Shown here: piece by piece, positions 666 through 63,858 of the stretch
Layout: every line of letters starts with the position of its first letter
How positions within the stretch are numbered: the first letter of the stretch is position 1
Origin: a virus
DNA: 64,000 bases
Virus record (IMG/VR): IMGVR_UViG_3300009788_000095
Coordinates: 1-64,000 of that record
Reading direction: 5' to 3' (one strand)
Notes under the pieces: model-generated
Database searches by the model: none
Told to the model about the DNA's origin: nothing
What the model saw: the letters and a program-made list of their open reading frames with translations, nothing else
Made by a program: the position numbers and the translations under genes

Positions 666-878
666 ATGTTTAACCCAAACGGTAAACGCAAGATGTTTGA
701 ATATATGGGAGAAAACTCAGCAGGATCGATAATAGAAGAAAGATGGATTGATGTTGAAATCCTGGACTGTGATGAGGATGAGAAAGTTTATGTAGTTCGA
801 CATGAGTATGGTTCAGTGGAGAAGATCGAAAAAAAGAATGGGGATGAGTATCAGTTCTATGATGAGAGGGAGGTGTAG
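666..878 (+). CDS. Hypothetical acidic beta-rich protein, 70 aa
   Basis: Not recognised. The sequence alternates charged and hydrophobic residues (WIDVEILDCDED, KVYVVRHEYG), as in a small SH3-like beta barrel. A GACAGGAG ribosome site precedes the ATG. Its TAG stop overlaps the GTG start of the next gene. Confidence 0.6.
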   Translation: MFNPNGKRKMFEYMGENSAGSIIEERWIDVEILDCDEDEKVYVVRHEYGSVEKIEKKNGDEYQFYDEREV

Positions 879-1141
879 TGGATGATAAATCTATTTTAAA
901 AAGGGTAATTGATCGGTACTGGATCCCAAAGGTAAATATGTGTGGTGAGTATAAAGGTGTTGTAGGATTCATAGCTATAAGAAGAACTCATAATCCTAAG
1001 AAGTGGAGTTGTTATATAGCAGGGGTACCAGGCAGCGATACTGATAATGATATTTGTTTGGTGGTAGAGCACGGTACTAAGCTGCAGCCTCGTGCTGCGG
1101 TAGCTATGTTTCCGTCTCTTGATATAGCTGATTATGAGTAA
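878..1141 (+). CDS. Hypothetical protein, 87 aa (GTG start)
   Basis: Not recognised. The GTG start overlaps the upstream TAG stop (TAGTG), with GAGGGAGG about seven bases before it. The stop codon abuts the tRNA-like gene, so this is the last coding gene of the rightward unit. Confidence 0.6.
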   Translation: MDDKSILKRVIDRYWIPKVNMCGEYKGVVGFIAIRRTHNPKKWSCYIAGVPGSDTDNDICLVVEHGTKLQPRAAVAMFPSLDIADYE

Positions 1142-1225
1142 GCCAGAATGGTGGAATAGACAGATACGCTTATCTCAAAAGCAGACGGGGGTAAACTCAT
1201 GCCGGTTCGAGACCGGCTCCGGGCA
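1142..1225 (+). tRNA. tRNA-Leu-like gene (tentative anticodon CAA)
   Basis: The 3' half is clear: a perfect 5-bp T stem (GCCGG/CCGGC) around a TTCGAGA loop, an acceptor 3' strand TCCGGGC, and a long type II variable arm as in Leu and Ser tRNAs. The D arm resembles bacterial tRNA-Leu (ATGGTGGAATAGAC). The acceptor has two mismatches and the anticodon stem pairs poorly. Aligning the loop as CTCAAAA gives anticodon CAA. No CCA is encoded. It may be a degenerate phage tRNA. Confidence 0.6.
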
Positions 1226-1303
1226 TATTATATTATTTCGTATTTTAACCTTCTCTTGTCAACAAGTAGTGGCTTGTGGGTAATATGATAGTCCCACCGG
1301 TTT

Positions 1304-1588
1304 TTATATAATTATATGTTTAATATTTCGGTTATTTACAAAATGAGCTTCGTTATAATAAGTAAATAGTTCTTTTGCGTATTTCTTCAATTGATATCTT
1401 TTATAGACATCTGTCAGTCTGCTATAAAGAAGTTTCACCTCGGAGTATGTCAATTCTTTGATGTGTCTTTTGTATATCTCTCCTGCAAGCACTTTTTCAA
1501 ATACCATATTTCTGAAATGATTGGATAATAGTTTTAAAATGAGGTTATTATTTATTTGCACGGTTTCTTCCTTTTGAAATAAAATCAT
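1304..1588 (-). CDS. Hypothetical basic helical protein
   Basis: Not recognised; Lys/Tyr-rich and probably all-helical. It is the last gene of the leftward unit. The start is uncertain: ATG at 1624, 1588 or 1507 are possible and none has a strong ribosome site. The 1588 start overlaps the preceding gene by about 40 bases. Confidence 0.4.
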   Translation of the reverse strand: MILFQKEETVQINNNLILKLLSNHFRNMVFEKVLAGEIYKRHIKELTYSEVKLLYSRLTDVYKRYQLKKYAKELFTYYNEAHFVNNRNIKHIII

Positions 1589-2339
1589 CTCTATTAAATT
1601 GCTCAGGAAAATCTCTTTCAGCATTATACTTTAATCGAAACTTTTCATAGGAATCTTTACTGTTAATATAATCGTACACATATGTTTTGTAAGAATCTCT
1701 TTTATATTTAAGTCTTTTTATATGAGTAAAGTCCTTTTTATTAAATAGATCAGGAAAATCTATTTCAGCATTATGCTTTAAACAAATCTTCTCAACCCTA
1801 TCAGAACTTTTACGATAATCAGTCGTGTATTTTTTATAACTACTTCTTTTATGTTTAAGTCTTTTTATATGAGTAAAATCGTCTTTATTAAATAAATCAG
1901 GAAAATCTCTTTTCGCAGCTCTTCTATACCCTATAGTCTCAAGCATTGTAGTTGAATTTTTATATGCTTGTTTATATTCTTCGTAAGTATCTTTAACATA
2001 TTTACGTAAATAGTTAAAATCATTTGTATTAAACTGATCAGGGAAATCTTTCTTAGCATTATCTTTTAGAGAACTTCGTTCACTATACTTAATACTCTTA
2101 TTATAATCTATAACGTATTTTATATAAAAATCCCTTTTATGTTGTCCTTTATTTGCCCACAATTTAAACTCGTTTGTAATTAATCTTTTTAGATATTTGA
2201 AAGAAAGTATATGATTCTTATTTAACATAGCTTCTGATTTATTCCGAGGTACAGTATAATTGACAAGATTATGTGAGTATTTAATTAAATTAGTTATATA
2301 TACTAATGATTTCTTATCTTCTTTATTAAACTGTCGCAT
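1548..2339 (-). CDS. Internal-repeat protein (about 49-residue repeats)
   Basis: This 263-residue protein contains at least three degenerate copies of a unit ending in a DFP-(D/E)-(L/Q)-FN-x-(K/D)-DF motif (DFPDLFNKDDF, DFPDLFNKKDF, DFPEQFNRDDF, DFPDQFNTNDF) separated by about 49 residues rich in Lys and Tyr. No known family is recognised. It overlaps the SF2 helicase gene by 14 bases, so co-expression and perhaps joint function in DNA or RNA binding are inferred. Confidence 0.6.
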   Translation of the reverse strand: MRQFNKEDKKSLVYITNLIKYSHNLVNYTVPRNKSEAMLNKNHILSFKYLKRLITNEFKLWANKGQHKRDFYIKYVIDYNKSIKYSERSSLKDNAKKDFPDQFNTNDFNYLRKYVKDTYEEYKQAYKNSTTMLETIGYRRAAKRDFPDLFNKDDFTHIKRLKHKRSSYKKYTTDYRKSSDRVEKICLKHNAEIDFPDLFNKKDFTHIKRLKYKRDSYKTYVYDYINSKDSYEKFRLKYNAERDFPEQFNRDDFISKGRNRANK

Positions 2340-3831
2340 GTCGCCTCTTTAATATATCCATTAATCTATTTAGTTCAGGGTACCTAGATTTAATAAAATT
2401 ACCATTTCTAATCATCATATTAATTTCTTTAATAATGGCTCTTGCTGTTTTCTCGTTTTTGATTTCTTTGATAACTTCAGTTAATTTTTGACGAGAATTG
2501 ATAGCTTCTTGTATATGGGGTAGTAATTCTTCATCCATTTGGTATGTACATCCGTCACCTAATTTATAAACTGCTATCTTTTGTCCTACTCCTAGTTTAA
2601 TTTGTGAAACTAAATTGGTGTTAGAAGCACTTGATATAAATCTTAATATTTTAGTAATTGCATGATGGGCACTTGCAAAATCTAATATAATAGCTTCTTC
2701 CTTACCTAACATAGCTCTCAAGGCACGACCTAGTCTTTGAAGAAATGTGGCAAAATTACTAACTGGTGTCAAAAATAGAATACCACCGACTGCTGGGGCA
2801 TTGTAGCCTTCTGATACTATATTAAGGTTTACTAAAACTCTGATCTCTCCTTTTTCTAATCTTCGTACAGCTTCTTCATTATGACTGTCCGAGTACTCAG
2901 ATAAGATAACTTCTGCTGGAATACCTGCTTCATTTAATCTATTAGTAATATACTTGGCGTATTTTGTATTACCTGCAAATGCTATAGCTGAGGATCCTTC
3001 TGGAAAATACTTATTAACATTATTTAAAATAGCCTGAACACGTTCTTCTATAAAAAGGGTTTTATCTCTATCTTTCTTTTTGTACTTTTTCTTCTCAATA
3101 TACATCTCGTCTTCAAGTAGCGAGTCTGTGTTATCGTGACATTGGATAAATCTATAATTAGATACCCATCCCGCCTTTATAGCTTCTCCAAGTGTAACAT
3201 TGATTAAAGCTTTATTATTAAACAAACTGGTAACAGATTTATTATCCGCTCTGTCAGCTGTTGCAGTCATTCCTAATTTAAAACTATCAAAATAAGATAA
3301 AATGTTAAGCCATGTGTCCGCTACTGAATGGTGGGCCTCATCTGCAATTACTAATTCAAATTCGTCTTTCTTAAATCCGTGTTTATATCTATATAGGGTG
3401 GGTACCATAGCAATAGTGACAGATTCATTGAATCTATAGTATGTGCCACTTCTCATAACAGAACTCTCTATACCTAAGATAAAGAATAGTTCTTCCCAAA
3501 GTGAGTACATTATAGATTTACGATGTGTCAGTATAAGTGTTTTATGTGATTTATTTTGTTTTAATAACCATTGGATGACCATTGCGGCTATTCGTGTTTT
3601 ACCAAAGCCAGTGGCTCCTAAGATAAGAGCACCATGCCCTATTAGTCCTTTATGTTGTTTATTTCTTTTCTTATAATAAGTCTTATATTCTTTAGTAAAC
3701 CCTGTTAGTGCCTTCTTTTGTTTAGTGTAAGGCGGTGGCACAACTCCTTGTTTTTTGTAATAATCTAAAGCTTGCTCTTTTAAAGCATCTTTTTGTCTTT
3801 GATTTGCTTCTTTCCATGTTTTTTGTTTCAT
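2326..3831 (-). CDS. SF2 DEAD/DEAH-box helicase (UvsW/SSL2-like)
   Basis: A 501-residue superfamily 2 helicase. Visible motifs are Walker A GATGFGKTR (about residues 72-80), motif II DEAH (164-167), motif III-like LGMTATADR, and motif VI QRLGRALR in the second RecA-like domain. The layout fits COG1061-type phage helicases related to T4 UvsW, which remodel branched DNA and R-loops; that role is inferred from the family. It is followed by an overlapping repeat protein and preceded by a small unknown gene. Confidence 0.88.
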   Translation of the reverse strand: MKQKTWKEANQRQKDALKEQALDYYKKQGVVPPPYTKQKKALTGFTKEYKTYYKKRNKQHKGLIGHGALILGATGFGKTRIAAMVIQWLLKQNKSHKTLILTHRKSIMYSLWEELFFILGIESSVMRSGTYYRFNESVTIAMVPTLYRYKHGFKKDEFELVIADEAHHSVADTWLNILSYFDSFKLGMTATADRADNKSVTSLFNNKALINVTLGEAIKAGWVSNYRFIQCHDNTDSLLEDEMYIEKKKYKKKDRDKTLFIEERVQAILNNVNKYFPEGSSAIAFAGNTKYAKYITNRLNEAGIPAEVILSEYSDSHNEEAVRRLEKGEIRVLVNLNIVSEGYNAPAVGGILFLTPVSNFATFLQRLGRALRAMLGKEEAIILDFASAHHAITKILRFISSASNTNLVSQIKLGVGQKIAVYKLGDGCTYQMDEELLPHIQEAINSRQKLTEVIKEIKNEKTARAIIKEINMMIRNGNFIKSRYPELNRLMDILKRRHATV

Positions 3832-8716: not shown

Positions 8717-9060
8717 TACTTTTTAAGTATTTCCCCATTCAACGAAACATTATTAATATTATTTCGTTGAAAAATATCTTTAATTCTGCTTTGCTCAACT
8801 TTACATTTGGCTGCTAGTCTTAAGTCTCCTGCTTCCTCCGCTTTTTCTTTTAAGGTATGTACCTCCCTACAGTAATTAGCTATTCTAAGGGAGTCTCTGT
8901 CCGTAAAATAATCTAGTATTTTATGCATTTGTGTTTCTGCTTGCGCATACATTTTTTTAGTTAATTTCCCAATACCCGGGATTTCCTCAAATAACCAATG
9001 TATGAGCGAGATTACTTTAAGGATAAGTAAACTAATATAAACTAATACAATCCGATACAT
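8716..9060 (-). CDS. Membrane-anchored hypothetical protein, 114 aa
   Basis: One N-terminal transmembrane helix (IVLVYISLLILKVISLIHWL) is followed by a helical charged domain (AQAETQMHKILDYFTDRDS, KEKAEEAGDLRLAAKCK). Not recognised. Its start lies inside the end of the sigma-like gene, overlapping by 29 bases. Confidence 0.6.
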   Translation of the reverse strand: MYRIVLVYISLLILKVISLIHWLFEEIPGIGKLTKKMYAQAETQMHKILDYFTDRDSLRIANYCREVHTLKEKAEEAGDLRLAAKCKVEQSRIKDIFQRNNINNVSLNGEILKK

Positions 9061-9694
9061 TTAATACCTCCATGTTGTTAATTAATACTCTTCTGAGCTT
9101 ACCGTAGAAATTGTGTATAGCCTCTTTACTACAGCTAAACTCTTTACTTAGTTCTGCTTGTGTGACAGCAGGGTTATTTTTTAAGACAGCTAGTGTCTTC
9201 TTAATCTTTATTTTCTGGTTTTTCCACCTCCTCTGATCAGTTATCAATATGTTCTCTAAAGTAGTTAGTATATAAGATAATTCAATTTTATTAAAAAACT
9301 TCACAAACAAATAGTTTGATCCAAAATAAGTATCAATGGTATTATTGAGCTCAGCAGGGTCTCTGTATTCAACATAATTTTTATCATTATGTAACTCCCT
9401 CAACTGGTCTCTACACTCACAGTAAGCTTTAACCTTTATACATCTTTTTATAAAATTGTATATCTCTTTGTTACTTTTCTGTGTATCCACTAGTTTTGTT
9501 ATAATAGATACAAAGTATTCAGAAACACTAGAAATAATAACGTGCCTATCCACATTAAAGGTATTATACTGCAGGCAGGCATAGTCAGCGTAATAGTTAA
9601 TAGAAGAGTAAAAGGCAGAGAATAATTTAGAGAAATACATCTCTTTTTTACTGCTCCTATAGTTATTTATAAGTTGTTTTAAATTGTGATACAC
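9032..9694 (-). CDS. Putative phage sigma-like transcription factor
   Basis: A 220-residue helical protein. Residues about 20-110 (FSAFYSSINYYADYACLQY, then KRCIKVKAYCECRDQLREL) have the length and pattern of sigma region 2. The C-terminal part ends with a helix-turn-helix, QAELSKEFSCSKEAIHNFYG and KLRRVLI, as in sigma region 4. It is too divergent to be certain. If real, it could direct host RNA polymerase to the repeated promoter-like elements found at 16.5, 23.2 and 28-29.7 kb; that link is inference. Confidence 0.55.
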   Translation of the reverse strand: MYHNLKQLINNYRSSKKEMYFSKLFSAFYSSINYYADYACLQYNTFNVDRHVIISSVSEYFVSIITKLVDTQKSNKEIYNFIKRCIKVKAYCECRDQLRELHNDKNYVEYRDPAELNNTIDTYFGSNYLFVKFFNKIELSYILTTLENILITDQRRWKNQKIKIKKTLAVLKNNPAVTQAELSKEFSCSKEAIHNFYGKLRRVLINNMEVLNVSDCISLY

Positions 9695-16075: not shown

Positions 16076-16097
16076 AGTTTACCTCACACAAAAATAA

Positions 16098-16128
16098 GGA
16101 GCTGCGGAAGGAGCAAGACCACAGCCCC
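16098..16128 (-). terminator. Intrinsic terminator after the 16136-16495 gene
   Basis: Read leftward, GGGGCTGTGG pairs along ten positions with CCGCAGCTCC (two G-U pairs) across an 11-base loop, followed by TTATTTTTG. With the promoter-like element at 16526-16562 this makes the gene between a single-gene transcription unit. Confidence 0.75.
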
Positions 16129-16135
16129 TATAAAA

Positions 16136-16495
16136 CTAAGCTACTTTCCCTAGTAATTTAATTACTTCTTTAGCGTTAGGACTATTTTTCTGTACAGCAT
16201 CTTCTATCGCTTTCCAGATAGGATCAATACTAACAGTTACATAGGAATATGCGTTTACCGGCACCCTTTTAAATGTAATATTAAACAGAGAGGTTAGGGC
16301 TTTATGGATTTCCGGTATACCCTTAGTAAACCCATTAGCAACAACAATCTTTTTTGTGCTGTCATAAATCTTTTTTGCTGCATTCTCTTTTGCCAGTTCA
16401 GCTTGTAATGTCTCATTGGCTTTTAGGTTAGCCTTCACCTCATCGTTAGCTTGTTTGCTTTTAAGATAAAGTAGTACCTCGTTCCATGTTAACAT
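16136..16495 (-). CDS. Hypothetical protein in its own transcription unit, 119 aa
   Basis: The chosen start MLTWNEVLLYL has AAAGGAGAAC just upstream; the frame could open at 16555 but that would begin inside the promoter-like element. The N-terminal half is an Ala/Lys/Glu helix (QANDEVKANLKANETLQAEL), the C-terminal half is mixed alpha/beta. Not recognised. A dedicated promoter and a strong terminator suggest a need for separate or high expression. Confidence 0.65.
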   Translation of the reverse strand: MLTWNEVLLYLKSKQANDEVKANLKANETLQAELAKENAAKKIYDSTKKIVVANGFTKGIPEIHKALTSLFNITFKRVPVNAYSYVTVSIDPIWKAIEDAVQKNSPNAKEVIKLLGKVA

Positions 16496-16525: not shown

Positions 16526-16562
16526 CTTTGTACTAAAGCTGACTTTCGCCAGCAAAGTCTCA
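16526..16562 (-). promoter_or_regulatory. Promoter-like repeat element, copy 1
   Basis: Read leftward this copy is TGAGAC, then TTTGCTGGCGAAAGTCAGC, then TTTAGTAC. Six other copies occur in the window, all in the same direction. It ends about 30 bases before the start codon of the 16495 gene and resembles a -35 (TTGAGAC) and -10 (T(A/T)TAGT) pair, with unusually strong conservation of the spacer. Confidence 0.6.
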
Positions 16563-16585
16563 GTAGCGAAAGATAATTCGTTTTT

Positions 16586-22791: not shown

Positions 22792-22990
22792 TTTTATGCT
22801 CAGCTAAGTAATCATCCACTTTTCGTAGGTGATAAAATACATGGTTTTTATCTGGTAGATTTTCAATATTCTCATATTGCGGGTCATCAGTATCAATACC
22901 AGTTATTTCTTCATAATGCGCACATTCTTCTGAATAAGAATAACTGATAATCTCGATTATAGATTTTATAATATCATTTGGTATTTCCAT
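22784..22990 (-). CDS. Hypothetical protein, 68 aa
   Basis: The chosen start MEIPNDIIKSIIEII follows GGAGGATAATG; the frame extends to 23134 only by overlapping the next gene. Helical and acidic. Not recognised. Confidence 0.6.
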   Translation of the reverse strand: MEIPNDIIKSIIEIISYSYSEECAHYEEITGIDTDDPQYENIENLPDKNHVFYHLRKVDDYLAEHKNG

Positions 22991-23165
22991 CATTATCCTC
23001 CGTGTAATAACCCTTATCATCAGTATTAACGAGTTGACCCTCAAAGTATGTGTTATTTTCATAAAACCCAATAACTTGAAATTTACCGTTTTCATCAAGT
23101 ATAAGAAGTGCTCCGATAGAGAATATCTTGTCACCAGCTTTTAAGTAATGTTTTTTACTTGTCAT
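22974..23165 (-). CDS. Hypothetical protein, 63 aa, first gene after a promoter-like element
   Basis: Beta-rich with GDKIFSIGALLILDENGKFQ. Not recognised. AAGGAGCAAAAGT precedes the ATG, and a copy of the promoter-like repeat ends about 11 bases upstream of the start codon. Confidence 0.6.
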   Translation of the reverse strand: MTSKKHYLKAGDKIFSIGALLILDENGKFQVIGFYENNTYFEGQLVNTDDKGYYTEDNDGNTK

Positions 23166-23175
23166 ACTTTTGCTC

Positions 23176-23213
23176 CTTCTGTACTAAAGCTGACTTCCGC
23201 CAGTTTGTCTCAA
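23176..23213 (-). promoter_or_regulatory. Promoter-like repeat element, copy 2
   Basis: Read leftward: TTGAGAC, AAACTGGCGGAAGTCAGC, TTTAGTAC. It lies immediately upstream of the 23165 start codon and its first bases overlap the stop codon of the preceding gene, so it would begin a new transcript inside a packed operon. Confidence 0.6.
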
Positions 23214-27705: not shown

Positions 27706-27786
27706 ACACTCTCCAGATTAGCATCTTATAGTTTATATCTATTTATCTAATAGAAGTCCATTAGACCACTATTACATAAATAGAAA

Positions 27787-27810
27787 GGGAGAGAAAGGAT
27801 AAACTCTCCC
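27787..27810 (-). terminator. Intrinsic terminator after the 27846-28100 gene
   Basis: Read leftward, GGGAGAG and CTCTCCC form a 7-bp stem around a 10-base loop, followed by TTTCTATTTATG. With the promoter-like element at 28217-28258 it would define another single-gene unit. Confidence 0.6.
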
Positions 27811-27845
27811 CCTCCCTTTTATCACTTAAGACTTAGTATCTAGTA

Positions 27846-28100
27846 CTATGCAGATACAGTCAGGACTTCGTTCTCTCCAAGTTTATCTATTTGTGTATCA
27901 TAGTTACCATCAGAGAACTCTTTTAGTACATCAGCATACCTAAGTATAGCTGCAATTTTAGCTTTACCTAAACTGAACCCACCTTTAGTAAAATTACCAG
28001 AGATACGTACTACAGGTGTACCGTTCATAGAATAGAACTTCTCTAATTTAGGCTCTATTATAGCAGGCTTACTTGACGTGGTTGTTTTAACAAGTTTCAT
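27846..28100 (-). CDS. Hypothetical protein in its own transcription unit, 84 aa
   Basis: Not recognised. A basic N-terminus (MKLVKTTTSSKPAIIEP) precedes a compact domain with GTPVVRISGNFTKGGFSLGK and AKIAAILRYADVLKEFSDG. AAAGGAGCATAAC precedes the ATG. A promoter-like repeat lies about 120 bases upstream and a terminator downstream, as for the 16136-16495 gene. Confidence 0.65.
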   Translation of the reverse strand: MKLVKTTTSSKPAIIEPKLEKFYSMNGTPVVRISGNFTKGGFSLGKAKIAAILRYADVLKEFSDGNYDTQIDKLGENEVLTVSA

Positions 28101-28216: not shown

Positions 28217-28258
28217 GCACTTTATGTACTAAAGCTGACTTCCGCCAGCAAGTCTCAA
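28217..28258 (-). promoter_or_regulatory. Promoter-like repeat element, copy 3
   Basis: Read leftward: TTGAGAC, TTGCTGGCGGAAGTCAGC, TTTAGTAC, ATAAAGTGC. It points at the 27846-28100 gene and would give a leader of about 120 bases. Conservation extends past the -10-like part into GTACATAAAG. Confidence 0.6.
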
Positions 28259-28537
28259 ACCAAAGTTGACCATTGTTATCAACAACTTATGAACACTACT
28301 GGTACACTACCCCCATAGAAAAAGAGAGTAAAGTACAGTAAGTATATACATATAAAGAATAATTATAACATAATAACAGTAATATACACAGAGAGAGGAG
28401 GGAGGGGTACACATAAAGCCTACACTGATTTAGTATACTATACCTTAGTATAACCTATATCCATCCATACAGTTTATTAATATCTCCGGTATACCCATAA
28501 CCATCTATATTCTTATTAACATCTTATAAAAACATCC

Positions 28538-28690
28538 ATAGACAGCTTATAGACAACATGTGACTGTCTATAGATCAGCCTATAGACAGCTTATAGGCAG
28601 CTTATAAATAACCATAGATCAGCCTATAGACAGCTTATAAATAACCATAGATAGCTTATAGACAGCTTATAGACAACATACGACTGTCAA
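28538..28690. repeat. Iteron-like block of short direct repeats
   Basis: Six copies of GCTTATA in contexts such as GACAGCTTATAGAC and ATAGATCAGCCTATAGACAG are packed into about 150 bases. Longer repeats also occur: CTTATAGACAACAT followed by GACTGTC at both ends, and ATAGATCAGCCTATAGACAG twice inside. Such iterons commonly bind replication initiators; no initiator gene is recognised in the window. Confidence 0.65.
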
Positions 28691-28811
28691 CGCTAAGGGA
28701 AAAGCCGGTCAGCCGCCCCCACACCCCTGTCCTTCTGATCCCGCTATACCCTTACACTTTTTTTAGTGTTCAGCTGTAGATTAACCAATAGCTCAACCAT
28801 AGTTCAGCCTA

Positions 28812-28847
28812 CACCCTCCCTACCTTAGCATAAAAGGTAGAGAGGGA
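28812..28847. repeat. Imperfect hairpin in the non-coding region
   Basis: CCCTCCCTACCTT and AAGGTAGAGAGGGAG form an imperfect stem around a short loop. It lacks a following T-run in either direction, so it is more likely structural than a terminator. Confidence 0.45.
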
Positions 28848-28935
28848 GATAAGCTTAGAGGAGGGAAGTATATTAACCGTTACTGTTATACTAACAGTAA
28901 GGTCATCTGTTATATAGTATATGTATTTTACCTGC

Positions 28936-28975
28936 GCTTTATGTACTATAGCTGACTTCCGCCGGTTTGTCTCAA
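28936..28975 (-). promoter_or_regulatory. Promoter-like repeat element, copy 4
   Basis: Read leftward: TTGAGAC, AAACCGGCGGAAGTCAGC, TATAGTAC, ATAAAGC. No gene lies directly downstream; transcripts would run into the iteron-like block and on toward 28100. Confidence 0.6.
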
Positions 28976-29010
28976 ACTGTAGCTCTACCGGCTATCAGCA
29001 GAAAATGATT

Positions 29011-29057
29011 CAACACGTCATTCTGCCGACTATCGGCAGTTTGCTGTGACACGTCAT
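29011..29057. repeat. CTGCCGA palindrome flanked by CACGTCAT, copy 1
   Basis: CTGCCGA and TCGGCAG pair around a CTA loop at 29023-29039, with ACACGTCATT on one side and GACACGTCATTT on the other. The same arrangement recurs at about 29137 and 29613, each beside a promoter-like repeat. Confidence 0.7.
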
Positions 29058-29063
29058 TTAGCC

Positions 29064-29104
29064 GCACTTTATGTACTATAGCTGACTTCCGCCGGTTTGT
29101 CTCA
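29064..29104 (-). promoter_or_regulatory. Promoter-like repeat element, copy 5
   Basis: Same sequence as copy 4 over the core (GGCGGAAGTCAGC, TATAGTAC, ATAAAGTGC), with TGAGAC at the 5' end. A transcript starting here would carry the CTGCCGA hairpin of copy 1 almost at its 5' end. Confidence 0.6.
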
Positions 29105-29178
29105 TCCTTACGTCAATAACGTAAGGATGATTCAACACGTCATTCTGCCGACTATCGGCAGAATGATATGACACGTCA
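29103..29178. repeat. CCTTACG hairpin and CTGCCGA palindrome, copy 2
   Basis: TCATCCTTACG pairs with CGTAAGGATGA (29102-29130). It is followed by a palindrome with 10-base arms ATTCTGCCGA and TCGGCAGAAT around CTA (29142-29164), flanked by ACACGTCATT-type repeats. Confidence 0.7.
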
Positions 29179-29195
29179 TTATGGTCACTTCTAAC

Positions 29196-29256
29196 ATAAG
29201 CGTAAATAGAGTAAAACACACCTATTTATCCTGTATTTTGCTCTATTTATGCTTAT
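29196..29256. repeat. Long inverted repeat, 21-base arms
   Basis: The arm ATAAGCGTAAATAGAGTAAA (29196 onward) pairs with an arm ending CTCTATTTATGCTTAT at 29256, with two G-U or mismatch positions and a 19-base loop. It lies downstream of the 29323-29499 gene and could end or process its transcript, though no clear T-run follows. Confidence 0.65.
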
Positions 29257-29322
29257 AAGATGCTATTTAGCATACACTTAGCTACTATACTCTAATAATA
29301 ACAGCTTTAAGTCTATACTACG

Positions 29323-29499
29323 TTATAGAAAGATATCTATCTCTCTAATATCGTCCAGTATAATAGTATGTTTGTACCGTGGATGTATATAGCCTTTTTT
29401 CTTGTAATACCTCTTAAGTATCATTAACCTATCGGCCTGGATTATACCAATAGTCTCTTTACCCTTATTCTTAACCTCTATTATTTTGGTTAAAACCAT
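29323..29499 (-). CDS. Small basic protein inside the control region, 58 aa
   Basis: The chosen start MVLTKIIEVKNKGKETI follows CAGGAGGTATA; the frame opens 15 codons earlier without support. It continues IGIIQADRLMILKRYYKKKG and TIILDDIREIDIFL. Not recognised. It has its own promoter-like element 40 bases upstream and is surrounded by non-coding repeats, so a role in replication or control is possible. Confidence 0.6.
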   Translation of the reverse strand: MVLTKIIEVKNKGKETIGIIQADRLMILKRYYKKKGYIHPRYKHTIILDDIREIDIFL

Positions 29500-29540
29500 T
29501 ATACCTCCTGTTGTATTATCAGCAGTTATGATAAATAACC

Positions 29541-29581
29541 GCACTTTATGTACTATAGCTGACCTCCGCCAATTTGTCTCA
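29541..29581 (-). promoter_or_regulatory. Promoter-like repeat element, copy 6
   Basis: Read leftward: TGAGAC, AAATTGGCGGAGGTCAGC, TATAGTAC, ATAAAGTGC. It faces the 29499 start codon about 40 bases away, giving the clearest promoter-gene arrangement of the cluster. Confidence 0.6.
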
Positions 29582-29585
29582 TCTT

Positions 29586-29656
29586 TACGTTAATAACGTA
29601 ATAATGCTATGGTACGTCATTCTGCCGACTATCGGCAGAATGATATGACACGTCAT
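29586..29656. repeat. TTACG hairpin and CTGCCGA palindrome, copy 3
   Basis: TTTACGTTAATAACGTAA forms a small inverted repeat, followed by ATTCTGCCGA and TCGGCAGAAT around CTA at 29619-29641. ACGTCAT repeats flank the palindrome. The order is the same as in copy 2. Confidence 0.7.
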
Positions 29657-29662
29657 TTAGCC

Positions 29663-29704
29663 GCACTTTATGTACTATAGCTGACCTCCGCCAATTTGTC
29701 TCAA
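29663..29704 (-). promoter_or_regulatory. Promoter-like repeat element, copy 7
   Basis: Read leftward: TTGAGAC, AAATTGGCGGAGGTCAGC, TATAGTAC, ATAAAGTGC. It is the rightmost copy; a transcript would immediately contain palindrome copy 3 and then cross copy 6. Confidence 0.6.
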
Positions 29705-36092: not shown

Positions 36093-36152
36093 TGCCAGTG
36101 ATGGGAATCGAACCCAATAGCCTTATTATTTCAGCTTCAACCTGACACTGGC
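36093..36152 (-). ncRNA. Truncated tRNA-like element (60 nt)
   Basis: Read leftward, a perfect 7-bp acceptor-type stem (GCCAGTG/CACTGGC plus discriminator A) encloses a T arm with TGGG/CCCA around TTCGATT. Only 28 bases lie between the acceptor and T arm, too few for normal D and anticodon arms; one weak stem (AGCT/GGCT) remains. It may be a tRNA remnant, a mini tRNA-like structure, or a stable 3' end for the 36167-36322 transcript. Confidence 0.6.
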
Positions 36153-36322: not shown

Positions 36323-36455
36323 TTGTTTCTCCTTCGCTTAGGGTTAAACTCGGATCAACCAACTACGGATGGGTGCCCCTTATTCCCAAGCTGTTAAATC
36401 ATATTTATTTACTATTTAACTACCCTCCCCAGCGCACTTGGGTGAGGTTCGTTTT

Positions 36456-36645
36456 TATAGGGGGTCATGGTGAAACGTATCTAAAAATACGAAGGTTCGT
36501 ACTATAGGGGGTCATGGTGATTTATAGGAAGGTCGGGAAAAACGTATCTGAAAATATATCCGGTCTCTTTTTACTCTATAATGTATGTCCGGTCTTCTTT
36601 TACTCTTTTTATAGAGGGTGGTCGAAAAAAGCGTATCTGAAAATA
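36456..36645. repeat. Direct repeats TATAGGGGGTCATGGTGA ... CGTATCTGAAAATA
   Basis: The start motif occurs as TATAGGGGGTCATGGTGA at 36456 and 36503, and in degenerate form as TATAGGAAGGTCGG at 36523 and TATAGAGGGTGGTCG at 36610. The end motif AACGTATCT(A/G)AAAATA follows copies 1, 3 and 4. CCGGTCT followed by CTTTTTACTCT or CTTTTACTC lies between copies 3 and 4. These could be operator sites. Confidence 0.65.
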
Positions 36646-36929
36646 TGGCGGGCACTACTGTTACTCTTACTCTGGTCTTATTGTTATTCTCTCTGATAGT
36701 ATAATGAATGATCCTGCATTTTTTCTTTTGACTATGTACCTACCGGTCAAATTCAAACCGAATTTAAAATGATAACTATTATGTTAGACCTCTTTGTATA
36801 CTGCACACACTTACCTTATCCCTCCTACACTTTTTATGCATAAATATACCCTTTTATCTTATTTCTCTACGCTTTTACTGCATTTCTTTACACATCTGTT
36901 TATTTCTCTACGTATCTTTTGTGCTATTA

Positions 36930-42301: not shown

Positions 42302-43144
42302 ATGAAATATTTCTATAGTTCTGCCTCCCAAGGATTCTTTGGTGAAGGATACGCTTGGCACAAGCCAATCCTACTGACAGAGTCAATACGAAGGTTTATC
42401 AAGAGAGAACGGACTCTGACACAGGACGGATTCTCATTCTGTACAATACCCAAGTTCCCAGACTTTCCATTCGTATGTAAAACAATCACACTGAATCCCA
42501 AAAAAGGAACACCCTGGAGATTTACTCCTCCACCTATTACTATGATAACTCGTAGTTGTTGGAACAAGATCAGATTGCATAACAAAGGGTTTGATTGGTT
42601 TATTAAGGAGTATACGTGGAGATTTGCTTCTGGAGAGAAATGTGGAGATCTGTATAAACTTATTCCTTCATTGTATGGAACAACAGATGAACTTCAAAGA
42701 ATGATAGATGGCTTGGAAGAGTATCTTGATTATATGATTAAAATGGTAGAAATAAATGTATCTTGTCCCAACGTAAAAGAAATAGCTGAAATCAAACTTC
42801 CGGAGTCGCCATATCCATTATCATTAAAGCTACGATATGATGATGATCCACGTAGGTATGATCTTTCTAATGTTAAAAGAATAACTTTGAACTCTATACC
42901 TGCTAGTCGCTACATTAAAGGTATGCCTGGCGGGATCTCGGGTAAACTGGCACAGAGTAGAAACTGGGACTTCATACGAAAGTATCAGATACAGATTGCT
43001 CCGGAGATAGCCGGATGTTCAATTACCAAGATGGAGGATATTGAAACACTAAGCAAACCCCCATATAACTGTAAATCCATAGGATTAGGTAGTGTCTTAA
43101 TGATAAACCCATGGCTTGTACTAAAGTTGAAGGAGGAAAGATAG
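42302..43144 (+). CDS. Dihydroorotate dehydrogenase-like TIM-barrel protein
   Basis: A 280-residue protein matching class 1/2 dihydroorotate dehydrogenase landmarks: an N-terminal GFFGEGY segment, VEINVSCPNVKEIA (the conserved N-x-SCPN motif), SLKLRYDDD, ITLNSIPASRYIKGMPGGIS with GKL, then APEIAGCSITKMEDI and KSIGLGSVLM for the FMN-phosphate part. It lacks some usual catalytic surroundings, so it may oxidise a different substrate. A 16-codon ORF (42255-42305) overlaps its start. Neighbours are SpeD-like and DUF3326 genes. Confidence 0.7.
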   Translation: MKYFYSSASQGFFGEGYAWHKPILLTESIRRFIKRERTLTQDGFSFCTIPKFPDFPFVCKTITLNPKKGTPWRFTPPPITMITRSCWNKIRLHNKGFDWFIKEYTWRFASGEKCGDLYKLIPSLYGTTDELQRMIDGLEEYLDYMIKMVEINVSCPNVKEIAEIKLPESPYPLSLKLRYDDDPRRYDLSNVKRITLNSIPASRYIKGMPGGISGKLAQSRNWDFIRKYQIQIAPEIAGCSITKMEDIETLSKPPYNCKSIGLGSVLMINPWLVLKLKEER

Positions 43145-43577: not shown

Positions 43578-44015
43578 ATGACTAATATATATTATAGATT
43601 CATTAATTGGAAGAATAGTTTATTTAAAGAAAAAATAACATGCTTACGAAGAATGCATGATCCCGATCATCGGGAGCATAAAAAAGAATTAGATTATTGG
43701 TATACACGAGGTATAAATAAAACTTGTAGTTTTTGTGGCTCCATGCACCCAGATGAGTTTTTTGACTTATGTAAAAAAGTAATTGAAAATAAAGGGCTTA
43801 ATGGGTATGAAGTTTCAATGTCTGATAAGAAATATAAAATTTATGTCCGCCAACCGGGTGTTTCTAATGCAGGAGATGGAGTTATCAAATTTTACGTTCA
43901 GCACATAAGACCAAAAGATAAAACAAAAGAATTTGAGAATATAGTAAATGAAGCAATACGTATATCTTCAGATGTGTTTAATAAAAAAATGGAAGAAAGG
44001 AGGAAAACTAAATGA
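43578..44015 (+). CDS. Hypothetical protein, 145 aa
   Basis: Not recognised. TCSFCGSMHPDEFFDLCKKV gives a CxxC plus His/Cys motif; GYEVSMSDKKYKIYVRQPGV reads as a beta hairpin; the rest is helical. It resembles phage proteins with a CSFCGS-HP-EFF-L pattern. GGAGGAAAATAAA precedes the ATG. Confidence 0.6.
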   Translation: MTNIYYRFINWKNSLFKEKITCLRRMHDPDHREHKKELDYWYTRGINKTCSFCGSMHPDEFFDLCKKVIENKGLNGYEVSMSDKKYKIYVRQPGVSNAGDGVIKFYVQHIRPKDKTKEFENIVNEAIRISSDVFNKKMEERRKTK

Positions 44016-45061
44016 TATGTGTACTAATCATACCGACAGGGGTAGGTCTTGCAATAGGTGGAAATGCCGGTGACGCTAATCCAGTTGCTAAACTAATTGG
44101 GGCTTGTTGTGATAAGTTGATTCTTCACCCTAATGTAGTAAATGCCAGCGATATAAACGAAATGCCAGAAAATGCAGTGTATGTAGAGGGATCCATGCTT
44201 GATCGGTTTCTTAGGCAAGAAATTGAATTGAAAGAAGTCCTACGGAATAAGGTATTAGTCGTTGCTAACCTGCCTCTCAGGAGCGATACTATAAATGCTG
44301 TAAGTGCAGCCAGAGCTACTATAGGTCTGGAAGCTAGTGTCTTGGAGTTAAATACACCATTAGAAATGATTGCCGAGATGCATGAAGACGGACATGCTGG
44401 CGGCATAGTAAGAGGCTGGAAAGAATTAATTGAACAAGTTGCACCGTTTGATTTTGATGCCTTGGCGGTACACACTCCGATAACTGTACCAAGAGAGACT
44501 GGATTAAATTATTATAAAAAAGGAGGCGTAAACCCGTGGGGCGGAGTTGAGGCAATAGCAAGCAAACTTATAGCTAATGAACTAAACAAACCGGTTGCTC
44601 ATGCTCCTGTAGAAAGTTTTAATATAGATGACCAACAAGAAGTATATGATCTAGTAGTGGATCCTAGAATAGCTTCAGAGTCACTATCCAGTTGTTATTT
44701 ACATTGTGTACTTAAAGGGCTGCATAAGGCACCACGTATCAGTGATCATTGTCCGGGATATGGTAGACGTATAGCTGCTCAAGAAGTCGATTTTATGGTA
44801 TCACCTTTTGGTCTGTGGGGTCCTCCTCACGAAGCTTGTGCAGCATTAGATATACCTATTATATTTGTCAATGAAAATAAACCGGCTAAAGGACTCGCAA
44901 AAGAGATCCCGGAAGGCAAATATCCTAGAATATTTCAAGTTGAAAATTATATAGAGGCAGCCGGTCTAATTATGGCTCATGAAGCTGGAATTGATCCTTT
45001 ATCTGTCAGAAGACCATTAGCAAATACAATAATAATAAAGGAGGTACAGAATGAAAAGTAA
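44012..45061 (+). CDS. DUF3326 family protein
   Basis: A 349-residue protein matching DUF3326: PTGVGLAIGGNAGDANPVAK (residues about 9-28), LILHPNVVNASDINE, YVEGSMLDRFL, GGVNPWGGVEAIASKLIANE, VAHAPVESF, and a C-terminal FGLWGPPHEACAALDIPIIF. The family occurs in cyanobacteria, other bacteria and plant plastids and has no established activity. It is unusual in a phage. It is the third enzyme-like gene after SpeD-like and DHOD-like genes, suggesting a shared pathway. Confidence 0.8.
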   Translation: MICVLIIPTGVGLAIGGNAGDANPVAKLIGACCDKLILHPNVVNASDINEMPENAVYVEGSMLDRFLRQEIELKEVLRNKVLVVANLPLRSDTINAVSAARATIGLEASVLELNTPLEMIAEMHEDGHAGGIVRGWKELIEQVAPFDFDALAVHTPITVPRETGLNYYKKGGVNPWGGVEAIASKLIANELNKPVAHAPVESFNIDDQQEVYDLVVDPRIASESLSSCYLHCVLKGLHKAPRISDHCPGYGRRIAAQEVDFMVSPFGLWGPPHEACAALDIPIIFVNENKPAKGLAKEIPEGKYPRIFQVENYIEAAGLIMAHEAGIDPLSVRRPLANTIIIKEVQNEK

Positions 45062-51563: not shown

Positions 51564-51701
51564 TTATACTCCTTTTTTACTCAGTTTTTCTTTACTGTCT
51601 TTAGTGTATAGCTTCCCTATGAACCCGACAAATGGTTGGAGTAAGATACACACAAGTATAGGTATGATGATAAAAGGTAAATAGACTTTTTGATATTTCA
51701 T
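51564..51701 (-). CDS. Small membrane protein, 45 aa
   Basis: The chosen start MKYQKVYLPFIIIP follows AGAGAG; ATGs further upstream are possible. One transmembrane helix (LPFIIIPILVCILLQPFVGF) and a basic C-terminal tail. It diverges from the gene at 51792. Confidence 0.5.
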   Translation of the reverse strand: MKYQKVYLPFIIIPILVCILLQPFVGFIGKLYTKDSKEKLSKKGV

Positions 51702-51756
51702 CTCTCTATTACTATATATCCTCATTTTGTAAAAAAAGTTAAGTACTTTTTTTTGG

Positions 51757-52214: not shown

Positions 52215-52227
52215 AGAAATATACTAA

Positions 52228-52257
52228 AAAGTACTGGACAATTTTGTCCAGTACTTT
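52228..52257 (+). terminator. Strong hairpin, likely terminator of the 51792 gene
   Basis: AAAGTACTGGACAA pairs perfectly with TTGTCCAGTACTTT over 14 bp around a 2-base loop. It starts 14 bases after the stop codon. The T-run is short, and A-rich flanks make it potentially bidirectional. Confidence 0.65.
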
Positions 52258-52279
52258 ACACATGAATCTAATTTAAGTA

Positions 52280-52311
52280 AAATCTACTGGACAAAATTGT
52301 CCAGTAGATTT
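52280..52311. repeat. Second hairpin sharing the CTGGACAA core
   Basis: AAATCTACTGGACAA and TTGTCCAGTAGATTT form a perfect 15-bp stem with a 2-base loop. The CTGGACAA/TTGTCCAG core is identical to the preceding hairpin while outer pairs differ, suggesting a shared protein- or RNA-binding core. Confidence 0.65.
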
Positions 52312-62167: not shown

Positions 62168-62447
62168 TAACGAAAACGAAATTGGTAGTTTAGGTGAATC
62201 TCAGATAACTAAGCAGGAAGAAAAAGTTATTATACCACAAAGGTTAGTAGGTAAGGATGTTGTTAACTGCCCTATAGCAGCTGCTGCAGAGTCAGTTGTA
62301 CTTGTAGATTTTTGTAAAAATATATGTTCTCATTTTGTTAAATTTATTGAAGATGAGAAATATGGTAATAGGGTTGAGTGTAAATACCCTAGATTTATAA
62401 AAGTTATTAATGTTTACGGAAAAGAAAAGTCAACTACCTTTACCTAA
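62160..62447 (+). CDS. Hypothetical Cys-containing protein after the actin gene, 95 aa
   Basis: Unstructured acidic N-terminus, then CPIAAAAESVVLVDFCKNIC and YGNRVECKYPRFIKVINVYG. The C...C...C-KYPRF pattern suggests a zinc or iron site. It overlaps the actin gene by eight bases and ends where the IscB leader starts, so the IscB unit may have entered just behind it. Confidence 0.6.
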   Translation: MGNNENEIGSLGESQITKQEEKVIIPQRLVGKDVVNCPIAAAAESVVLVDFCKNICSHFVKFIEDEKYGNRVECKYPRFIKVINVYGKEKSTTFT

Positions 62448-62511
62448 AGGGTAGGGGCTTGAGTAGTGATGCTCAACGCAAGGGTTGATTAGGGAGCTAA
62501 AAGGAAATTTT
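62433..62511 (+). ncRNA. Candidate 3' part of an omega (HEARO) RNA
   Basis: The 65 bases before iscB are unusually GC-rich for this genome and can form consecutive stems: CTACCTTT with AAAGGGTAG, CTTGAG with CTCAA(C), and TCAAC with GTTGA, followed by GGGAGC. IscB proteins are guided by an omega RNA encoded just upstream, first recognised as the HEARO motif, with the guide at its 5' end. The 5' limit and guide cannot be fixed by eye. Confidence 0.45.
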
Positions 62512-63858
62512 ATGCAGAAGTTATTAGTAAAGTTAAAGAACACACCTACGGATGCTTCACAAGTCTGTAGCTCTGTAAATTCTGTATTAAACAAAGAGGG
62601 CACTCTTAGTGTGCAGAATAAAGTACTGGCTAATAACAATCCCGAAGTGAATCGAGTCTCTACAAACAAGACGCTCGTTAAAAGTAAAGTGTTTGTGCTT
62701 AACAAACAAGGTTTACCATTAATGCCCTGTAGTTATGCTAAGTCTAAAAGAATGGTTAAAAAGGGAGGAGCGAAAGTAGTTAAAAGATATCCCTTTACAA
62801 TCCAATTAACATTTGATTGTGAAAACAAAACCCAAGATATTACTTTAGGTATTGATACGGGTTTTGGTAACATTGGGTTTAGTGCTGTTTCAGAAAAGGA
62901 AGAATTAATTTCAGGAACTTTAAAACTCGATGGAAGAACTAAAGAAAGATTAGATGAAAGAAGAATGTATCGAAGATGTAGAAGAAACAAATTGTGGTAC
63001 AGGAAAGCAAGATTTAGTAATCGAAAGAAAAAAGAAGGATGGTTACCTCCTTCAACCCAAAGACGGTATGATACACATTTGAATTTAATTAACGGGTTGA
63101 AAAAGATACTGCCCATCACTTTAATTACTGTTGAAGTAGCAAAGTTTGATATCCAGAAGATAGAGAATCCAGATATCCAAGGAAAAGAATACCAGCAAGG
63201 TAATTTGTACGAATATCAAAATACAAGAAGTTACTTAATGGCTAGAGAAAAGGGTAAGTGCCAGTTATGTAGTAAAGATTTTAAAGGTCAACCAAGTCAC
63301 CTACACCACTGTAAACAACGAAATGAAGCGGGTAGTAATAGACCTGAAAACTTAGCCTTACTTCATAAAGTATGTCACACGAAGCTACACAGAAAAGGAT
63401 TAAAACTATTTAAACCAAAAGAATATAAGGCCAATATATTTATGTCTATTATAAACAAAAGGTTCTGGAAAGATGTTTCTAATTTAAAAGTTACTTACGG
63501 TAATACAACATTTGTTGATAGAAATAATTTAGAGTTAGAAAAATCTCATGTTAACGACGCTTTTGTTATTGCTAACGGTTCTAGTCAGAGAAGGTGTAAA
63601 GCGTTTAGTATACTTCAAAAGCGTAGAGCGAATCGAGCGTTGCAGTTAAATAGAAAAGGATTTAAACTTTCTATTCGTAAACAGAGATATAACTTACAGC
63701 CGCATGACTTAGTTAAAGTTAATAACCTTATTTGCACTGTTATTGGAACTCATTGCAAAGGTACTAGAGTTATGATTAATAAATTGGATAGAAAAGTTAG
63801 TGAGTCAATTAAAAATATAGAATGGAGTTTTCATTTTGGAAGTTTTACATATAATTAA
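62512..63858 (+). CDS. iscB: IscB RNA-guided HNH/RuvC nuclease
   Basis: A 448-residue protein with full IscB architecture: PLMP motif (69-72), RuvC-I LGIDTGFGNIGF with D115, Arg-rich bridge helix (RRMYRRCRRNKLWYRKAR), RuvC-II near VEVAKFD, HNH domain with CQLC...LHHCKQR...NLALLHKVCH, and RuvC-III SHVNDAF. These residues look intact, so it should cut DNA guided by its omega RNA. The start follows AAAAGGAAATTTT. An extra segment of about 57 residues precedes the PLMP domain. No TnpA is seen nearby. Confidence 0.92.
   Translation: MQKLLVKLKNTPTDASQVCSSVNSVLNKEGTLSVQNKVLANNNPEVNRVSTNKTLVKSKVFVLNKQGLPLMPCSYAKSKRMVKKGGAKVVKRYPFTIQLTFDCENKTQDITLGIDTGFGNIGFSAVSEKEELISGTLKLDGRTKERLDERRMYRRCRRNKLWYRKARFSNRKKKEGWLPPSTQRRYDTHLNLINGLKKILPITLITVEVAKFDIQKIENPDIQGKEYQQGNLYEYQNTRSYLMAREKGKCQLCSKDFKGQPSHLHHCKQRNEAGSNRPENLALLHKVCHTKLHRKGLKLFKPKEYKANIFMSIINKRFWKDVSNLKVTYGNTTFVDRNNLELEKSHVNDAFVIANGSSQRRCKAFSILQKRRANRALQLNRKGFKLSIRKQRYNLQPHDLVKVNNLICTVIGTHCKGTRVMINKLDRKVSESIKNIEWSFHFGSFTYN

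Follow-up and report, generated by a model that had tools for sequence, protein, structure and literature searches.

The middle promoters of phage T4 combine a MotA box with a host σ70-type −10 element and are used through sigma appropriation; the MotA box reads (a/t)3TGCTTtA and has its centre at −30, 12 ± 1 bp above the −10 element (PMC2988021). The early promoters of the same phage have a consensus extending beyond the σ70 elements, with viral factors absent (PMC2988021). The Q binding elements of lambda and 21, as well as the AlpA element, sit between −35 and −10 (PMC6606751, PMC7969949). PeSL cassettes of T4-like phages and a similar motif in HGTV-1 are described as an intergenic promoter-like repeat with a stem-loop before small genes, possibly spread by recombination (PMC4503421, PMC3950731). 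The Start Associated Sequences (SAS) of cluster K mycobacteriophages are 13-bp motifs for which a role in translation initiation was proposed (PMC3203893).

Here, we describe a repeated element in a 64,000-nucleotide window, i.e., the whole stretch of DNA analysed, which is part of the 97,539-base virus record IMGVR_UViG_3300009788_000095 (G000). Like the T4 middle promoters, the element joins a host-type −10 to a phage-specific upstream box, tolerates a small change in spacing, and occurs without a detectable phage polymerase. However, its box abuts the −10 and differs in sequence, and the aligned copies contain TGAGAC instead of TGCTT in the corresponding region. The element shares with the Q and AlpA elements a recognition box between −35 and −10 and hairpins after the promoter, but its copies are many, against one or two for those elements, and a conserved −10-like pause site is lacking. 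With the PeSL cassettes and the HGTV-1 motif, the likeness lies in a repeated intergenic promoter-like motif with a stem-loop ahead of small genes; unlike PeSL as described in those reports, strong stem-loops stand directly upstream of three of the seven element copies, all within a cluster, and the promoter does not follow the early σ70 consensus. SAS are likewise short repeats found before many phage start codons and absent or rare elsewhere, whereas the element is 34–35 nt long and promoter-shaped and lies 16–126 nt ahead of four start codons. Switches of this type are known in other phages; the sequence and its putative reader are new.

All seven copies counted in an earlier, sequence-only reading of the window were recovered in place and on the minus strand (Table 1). 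A 27-base pattern with up to three mismatches matched seven times in the window and never in 100 dinucleotide shuffles. We ran the matrix search proposed in that reading on the 97,539-base record and obtained seven sites of 42–80 bits, followed by a next best site of 2.1 bits. So sharp a gap between the copies and the remaining genome would also be compatible with sites that spread through recombination. Equal occurrence inside genes and in both orientations, which the same reading had named as an argument against a promoter, was not observed, with no copy within a gene and none reversed. The 180,316-base record IMGVR_UViG_3300024265_000030 (G001) differs from G000 by one mismatch in 15,857 compared bases and is the same virus, an unclassified phage; it contains exactly seven copies on one strand, none reversed. 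The evidence for the element is that of one virus in two near-identical assemblies. Relatives sought via RadC, a 345-aa protein, the terminase, and a 220-aa protein returned the same virus only. The terminase matches those of Bacillus and Microcystis phages at about 30%, and the matches of RecD2 (46% at most) are distributed across Desulfobacterota and Clostridia and do not name the host. Beyond its own virus, the element was not found in the viral contigs searched, where 15-mer matches had unrelated flanks, or in 84,980 bacterial and archaeal genomes (0 matches), and distant blastn searches of phage and plasmid collections gave nothing relevant to it.

Table 1. Coordinates of the element copies, the associated features, and the 49-nt family (window positions unless G001 is indicated).
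Feature	Position	Strand	Name in text	Remarks
Element copy	29671–29704	−	29666	TTGAGAC-AAATT-GGCGGAGGTCAGC-TATAGT-ACA; −10-like TATAGT at 29679–29674
Element copy	29549–29582	−	29544	51 nt before ATG 29499
Element copy	29072–29105	−	29067	Two strong hairpins ahead
Element copy	28942–28975	−	28937
Element copy	28225–28258	−	28220	Linker TTGCT, TTTAGT; 126 nt before ATG 28100
Element copy	23180–23213	−	23175	Overlaps stop codon of ORF 23386–23210 by 3 nt; 16 nt before ATG 23165
Element copy	16529–16563	−	16524	Most diverged, linker +1 nt; 35 nt before ATG 16495
58-aa ORF	29323–29499	−		Downstream of copies 29666 and 29544; AGGAGG before ATG; no family above noise
84-aa ORF	27846–28100	−		Downstream of copy 28220; no family matched
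63-aa ORF	22974–23165	−		Downstream of copy 23175
119-aa ORF	16136–16495	−		Downstream of copy 16524; no credible family
Large hairpin	29196–29260	−		After ORF 29499–29323; fold z −6.2
Terminator-like hairpin	27784–27819	−		Ends unit 28100–27846; 14-bp stem
Terminator-like hairpin, then TTATTTTTG	16090–16130	−		Ends unit 16495–16136; fold z −2.8
Stem-loop ATTCTGCCGATAGTCGGCAGAAT (CTGCCGATAGTCGGCAG), three copies	29140–29165; near 29020–29045 and 29617–29643	−		Within the 28.2–29.7 kb region
Inverted repeat CATCCTTACGTTATTGACGTAAGGATG	29103–29130	−		Inverted repeats abut the −35 box of two copies, 29067 and (in weaker form) 29544
49-nt family	51700–51752 (51748)	−
49-nt family	G001 164300–164350 (164304)	+
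49-nt family	G001 175821–175871 (175825)	+

The element reads TTGAGAC-N5/6-GGCGRARGTCAGCTWTAGTACA, of which TGAGAC-N5-GGCGRARGTCAGCTWTAGTACA forms the invariant core (N6 in the 16.5-kb copy only). When the copies are aligned, TTGAGAC is followed by a linker of 5 nt (6 nt in the 16.5-kb copy), the 13-bp box GGCGRARGTCAGC, and T(A/T)TAGTACA, with the box in fixed register with T(A/T)TAGT. The shared pattern of about 40 bases previously noticed is borne out for TTGAGAC, the box, and T(A/T)TAGTAC; it does not extend to ATAAAG, which is found in five of the seven copies, lies outside the core, and was probably shared through local duplication. Nor is the spacer conserved throughout, since the 5–6 nt linker after GAGAC varies freely. 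Among the six copies of equal length, eight of 34 columns vary, comprising all five linker columns but only three of the 29 others (p = 0.0002). The conservation is that of two recognised or constrained blocks around a free linker; recent copying would scatter the changes. Because the 16.5-kb copy has one additional linker nucleotide, the blocks tolerate a small change in spacing. Despite unrelated flanks, the 23.2- and 28.2-kb copies have the same 22 core bases. Flank sharing is confined to the pairs 29067/29544 (upstream, 82%) and 29067/29666 (downstream, 90%), owing to a 122-nt duplication, and the other pairs are near the background of about 35%. Since the copies in unrelated flanks retain the blocks, the conservation reflects more than recent duplication.

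The leftward gene block at 1.5–36.3 kb is 12% non-coding. By a simple ORF rule with a few hand corrections, all seven copies are non-coding, the 23.2-kb copy touching only the preceding stop codon. Four copies precede a start codon closely, as had been noticed, although the distances, counted from the last base of TAGTAC (Table 1), do not all stay within the 10–120 bases first given. For the remaining three copies, which are arranged in tandem in the 28.2–29.7 kb region, the next start codon is 173, 843, and 973 nt from the end of TAGTAC, with none within 170 nt. Terminators had been noticed behind two of the genes; here, terminator-like hairpins end the 16.5- and 28.2-kb units and a large hairpin ends the 29.5-kb unit. 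Among the downstream hairpins, a clear T tract is found in one only. The promoter-like cluster adjoins an iteron-like array at 28538–28675, consisting of 12.6 copies of the 11-bp unit ATAGACAGCTT, a possible candidate for a replication origin.

The copies are repeated, same-sense, non-coding, and upstream of phage genes, and their conserved blocks have −35/−10 spacing, as in a phage-specific promoter family. GAGAC(A/T) and T(A/T)TAGT are 17 nt apart, which is the geometry of bacterial promoters. As a σ70 promoter, the element matches the −10 hexamer at five of six positions in four copies and at four of six in the other three, while GAGACA matches the −35 hexamer at four of six positions at the 17-nt spacing, and TTGAGA lies at 19 nt. 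Perfect sites of the form TTGACA-17-TATAAT do occur in the same virus, at 36.9 and 52.8 kb, both in rightward orientation. The poor −35 of the element, together with canonical sites elsewhere in the virus, sets the element apart as a separate class. The copies probably serve the phage as “on” switches of its own for leftward genes. Conservation does exceed the needs of σ70, but it is confined to the two blocks and does not run through the entire spacer and the start region.

The anatomy is best read as the phage-specific promoter suggested earlier; the candidate reader and the additional polymerase suggested with it fared less well. The 220-aa protein encoded at 9032–9694 showed no sigma match in Pfam, PHROGs, NCBIfam, or PDB, Pfam giving only a sub-cutoff HTH_11 hit, and its single-sequence fold was unusable, the model being too poor to judge. 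Searches of the 180-kb record with Sigma70_r2, r4, and r4_2 gave no matches. Another polymerase is disfavoured: the T7-like RNA polymerase family PF00940 is absent from G001, a possibly incomplete record, while the T7 positive control matches at 1e-110, no multisubunit polymerase beta subunit was detected, and scanning the large proteins for a polymerase found none. An unusually large open frame at G000 81019–97539 (+), which exceeds 5,500 codons and runs off the record end, was considered as a virion polymerase and rejected; it carries the tape-measure domain PF10145 and is a tail tape-measure protein. No candidate reader protein for the element was found.

With no RNA polymerase detectable in the virus, the likeliest reader would be host RNA polymerase together with a phage factor. 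We infer that the copies form one promoter family for leftward transcription by host RNA polymerase and a phage-made specificity factor, to which we assign a probability of roughly 0.58 from the sequences. The host enzyme would be recruited with the help of this factor, an activator or a sigma partner, which would recognise the invariant 13-bp box filling the promoter spacer and abutting the −10 box TWTAGT. A second contact, with a spacing flexible by one nucleotide, would be made at the TGAGAC box of the −35 region. Transcription would start at the copies, such that transcripts from four of them begin just before short single genes, whereas the others may act as tandem promoters, with stem-loops between them, in a regulatory region at 28.2–29.7 kb. 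If true, this would give a virus that is otherwise unreadable a sequence-defined regulon and a transcription programme, with the 13-bp box as a concrete bait for a new phage transcription factor.

A phage factor would be unnecessary if the copies were over-built σ70-type early promoters as in T4, read by host polymerase alone with the extra conservation optimising strength. The −10 match in TATAGT, GAGACA at 17 nt, and the T4 early promoters as a precedent (PMC2988021) speak for this. None of the seven copies, however, has a good −35 at good spacing, perfect σ70 sites exist in the same virus, and σ70 is not known to contact an invariant G+C-rich box in the spacer, making this explanation rather unlikely. 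Host polymerase would also be the enzyme if a Q/AlpA-like antiterminator were loaded at the spacer box, allowing polymerase to pass the downstream hairpins. The location of the box between −35 and −10 resembles the Q and AlpA elements (PMC6606751, PMC7969949), and several copies have hairpins downstream, but the −10-like pause element that Q requires in the initial transcribed region shows no conservation across the 16.5-, 23.2-, and 28.2-kb copies, a single hairpin has a clear T tract, and no Q-like protein or Q/AlpA homologue was found; we consider this quite improbable. Promoters for a T7-like single-subunit polymerase are scarcely credible despite the rigid 21-mer core and the arrangement GGCGGARGTCAGC-TWTA-G (13-bp box, TWTA, G) resembling the T7 layout, given the absence of PF00940 from the 180-kb record and a TGAGAC box too far upstream for this class.

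Other explanations dispense with a promoter. Sites serving mainly replication, partition, or recombination cassettes, spread between genes by PeSL-like shuffling, would account for the stem-loops upstream of the cluster copies (fold z-scores of −9.3 for copy 29067, −7.4 for 29544, and −2.6 for 28937), for the adjacent iteron-like array, and for the duplicated 122-nt segments, and the virus encodes a ParB-like protein. Yet no dyad is conserved in the element, neither iterons nor strong hairpins accompany the single-gene copies at 16.5 and 23.2 kb, and a two-block constraint at promoter spacing is not expected for a simple operator, so that we regard this as unlikely. A structured RNA element in the transcripts, with the hairpin GCUGGC-GNRA-GUCAGC, is very improbable. 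Two copies form the six-pair stem with a GGAA or GAAA loop, but the idea fails because the stem changes are uncompensated: five copies lose pairs from the left arm without compensation. Folding is also not conserved (z-scores from −2.0 to +0.35), and no Rfam match was obtained at 28.1–29.95 kb.

Other promoter-like families are present in the same virus. A k-mer survey identified a second exact family, the 49-nt sequence AAAAAGTACTTAACTTTTTTTACAAAATGAGGATATATAGTARTAGAG containing TATATAGTA, in three copies (Table 1), each just before a start codon and within unrelated flanks; it was found in this virus only. A third, looser set comprises three leftward (C/T)AGATACG-N15-17-CTATAAA sites at 36450–36650 (−), ahead of the leftward block. 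A repeated CACCATGACCCCCTATA occurs alongside this set. The presence of several such promoter-like families, long and near-invariant, in a single phage is in keeping with a temporal programme of transcription. With at least two exact, non-overlapping families and no detectable polymerase or sigma genes, reprogramming of the host polymerase becomes directly testable. More speculatively, and with considerable doubt, a phage factor of an unknown family might bind the spacer in a rigid position next to the −10 box and either redirect host polymerase to these promoters or accompany it through the hairpins downstream, while a second factor would read the 49-nt family, giving several private promoter codes used by a host polymerase without a recognisable sigma factor.

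Close to the third set, a 60-nt tRNA-like sequence at 36093–36152 (−) has a 7-bp acceptor stem and a T arm with a shortened anticodon part; it scores 19.6 bits with the Rfam tRNA model, below the cut-off, and ARAGORN reports no tRNA. Judged by eye only, two metabolic-looking proteins are encoded further right, a dihydroorotate-dehydrogenase-like protein at 42302–43144 (+) and a 349-aa protein resembling DUF3326 at 44012–45061 (+). An 879-nt gap contains two perfect palindromes in tandem, AGTACTGGACAATTTTGTCCAGTACT and a variant of it, at 52225–52311. LAGLIDADG domains within the ThyX and helicase genes of G001 (853–3000 and 165053–167494, +) are probable inteins. In the phage structural region, the segment at 62429–63858 (+) comprises a HEARO RNA (Rfam RF02033, E = 2e-23) immediately followed by an IscB-like HNH/RuvC ORF.
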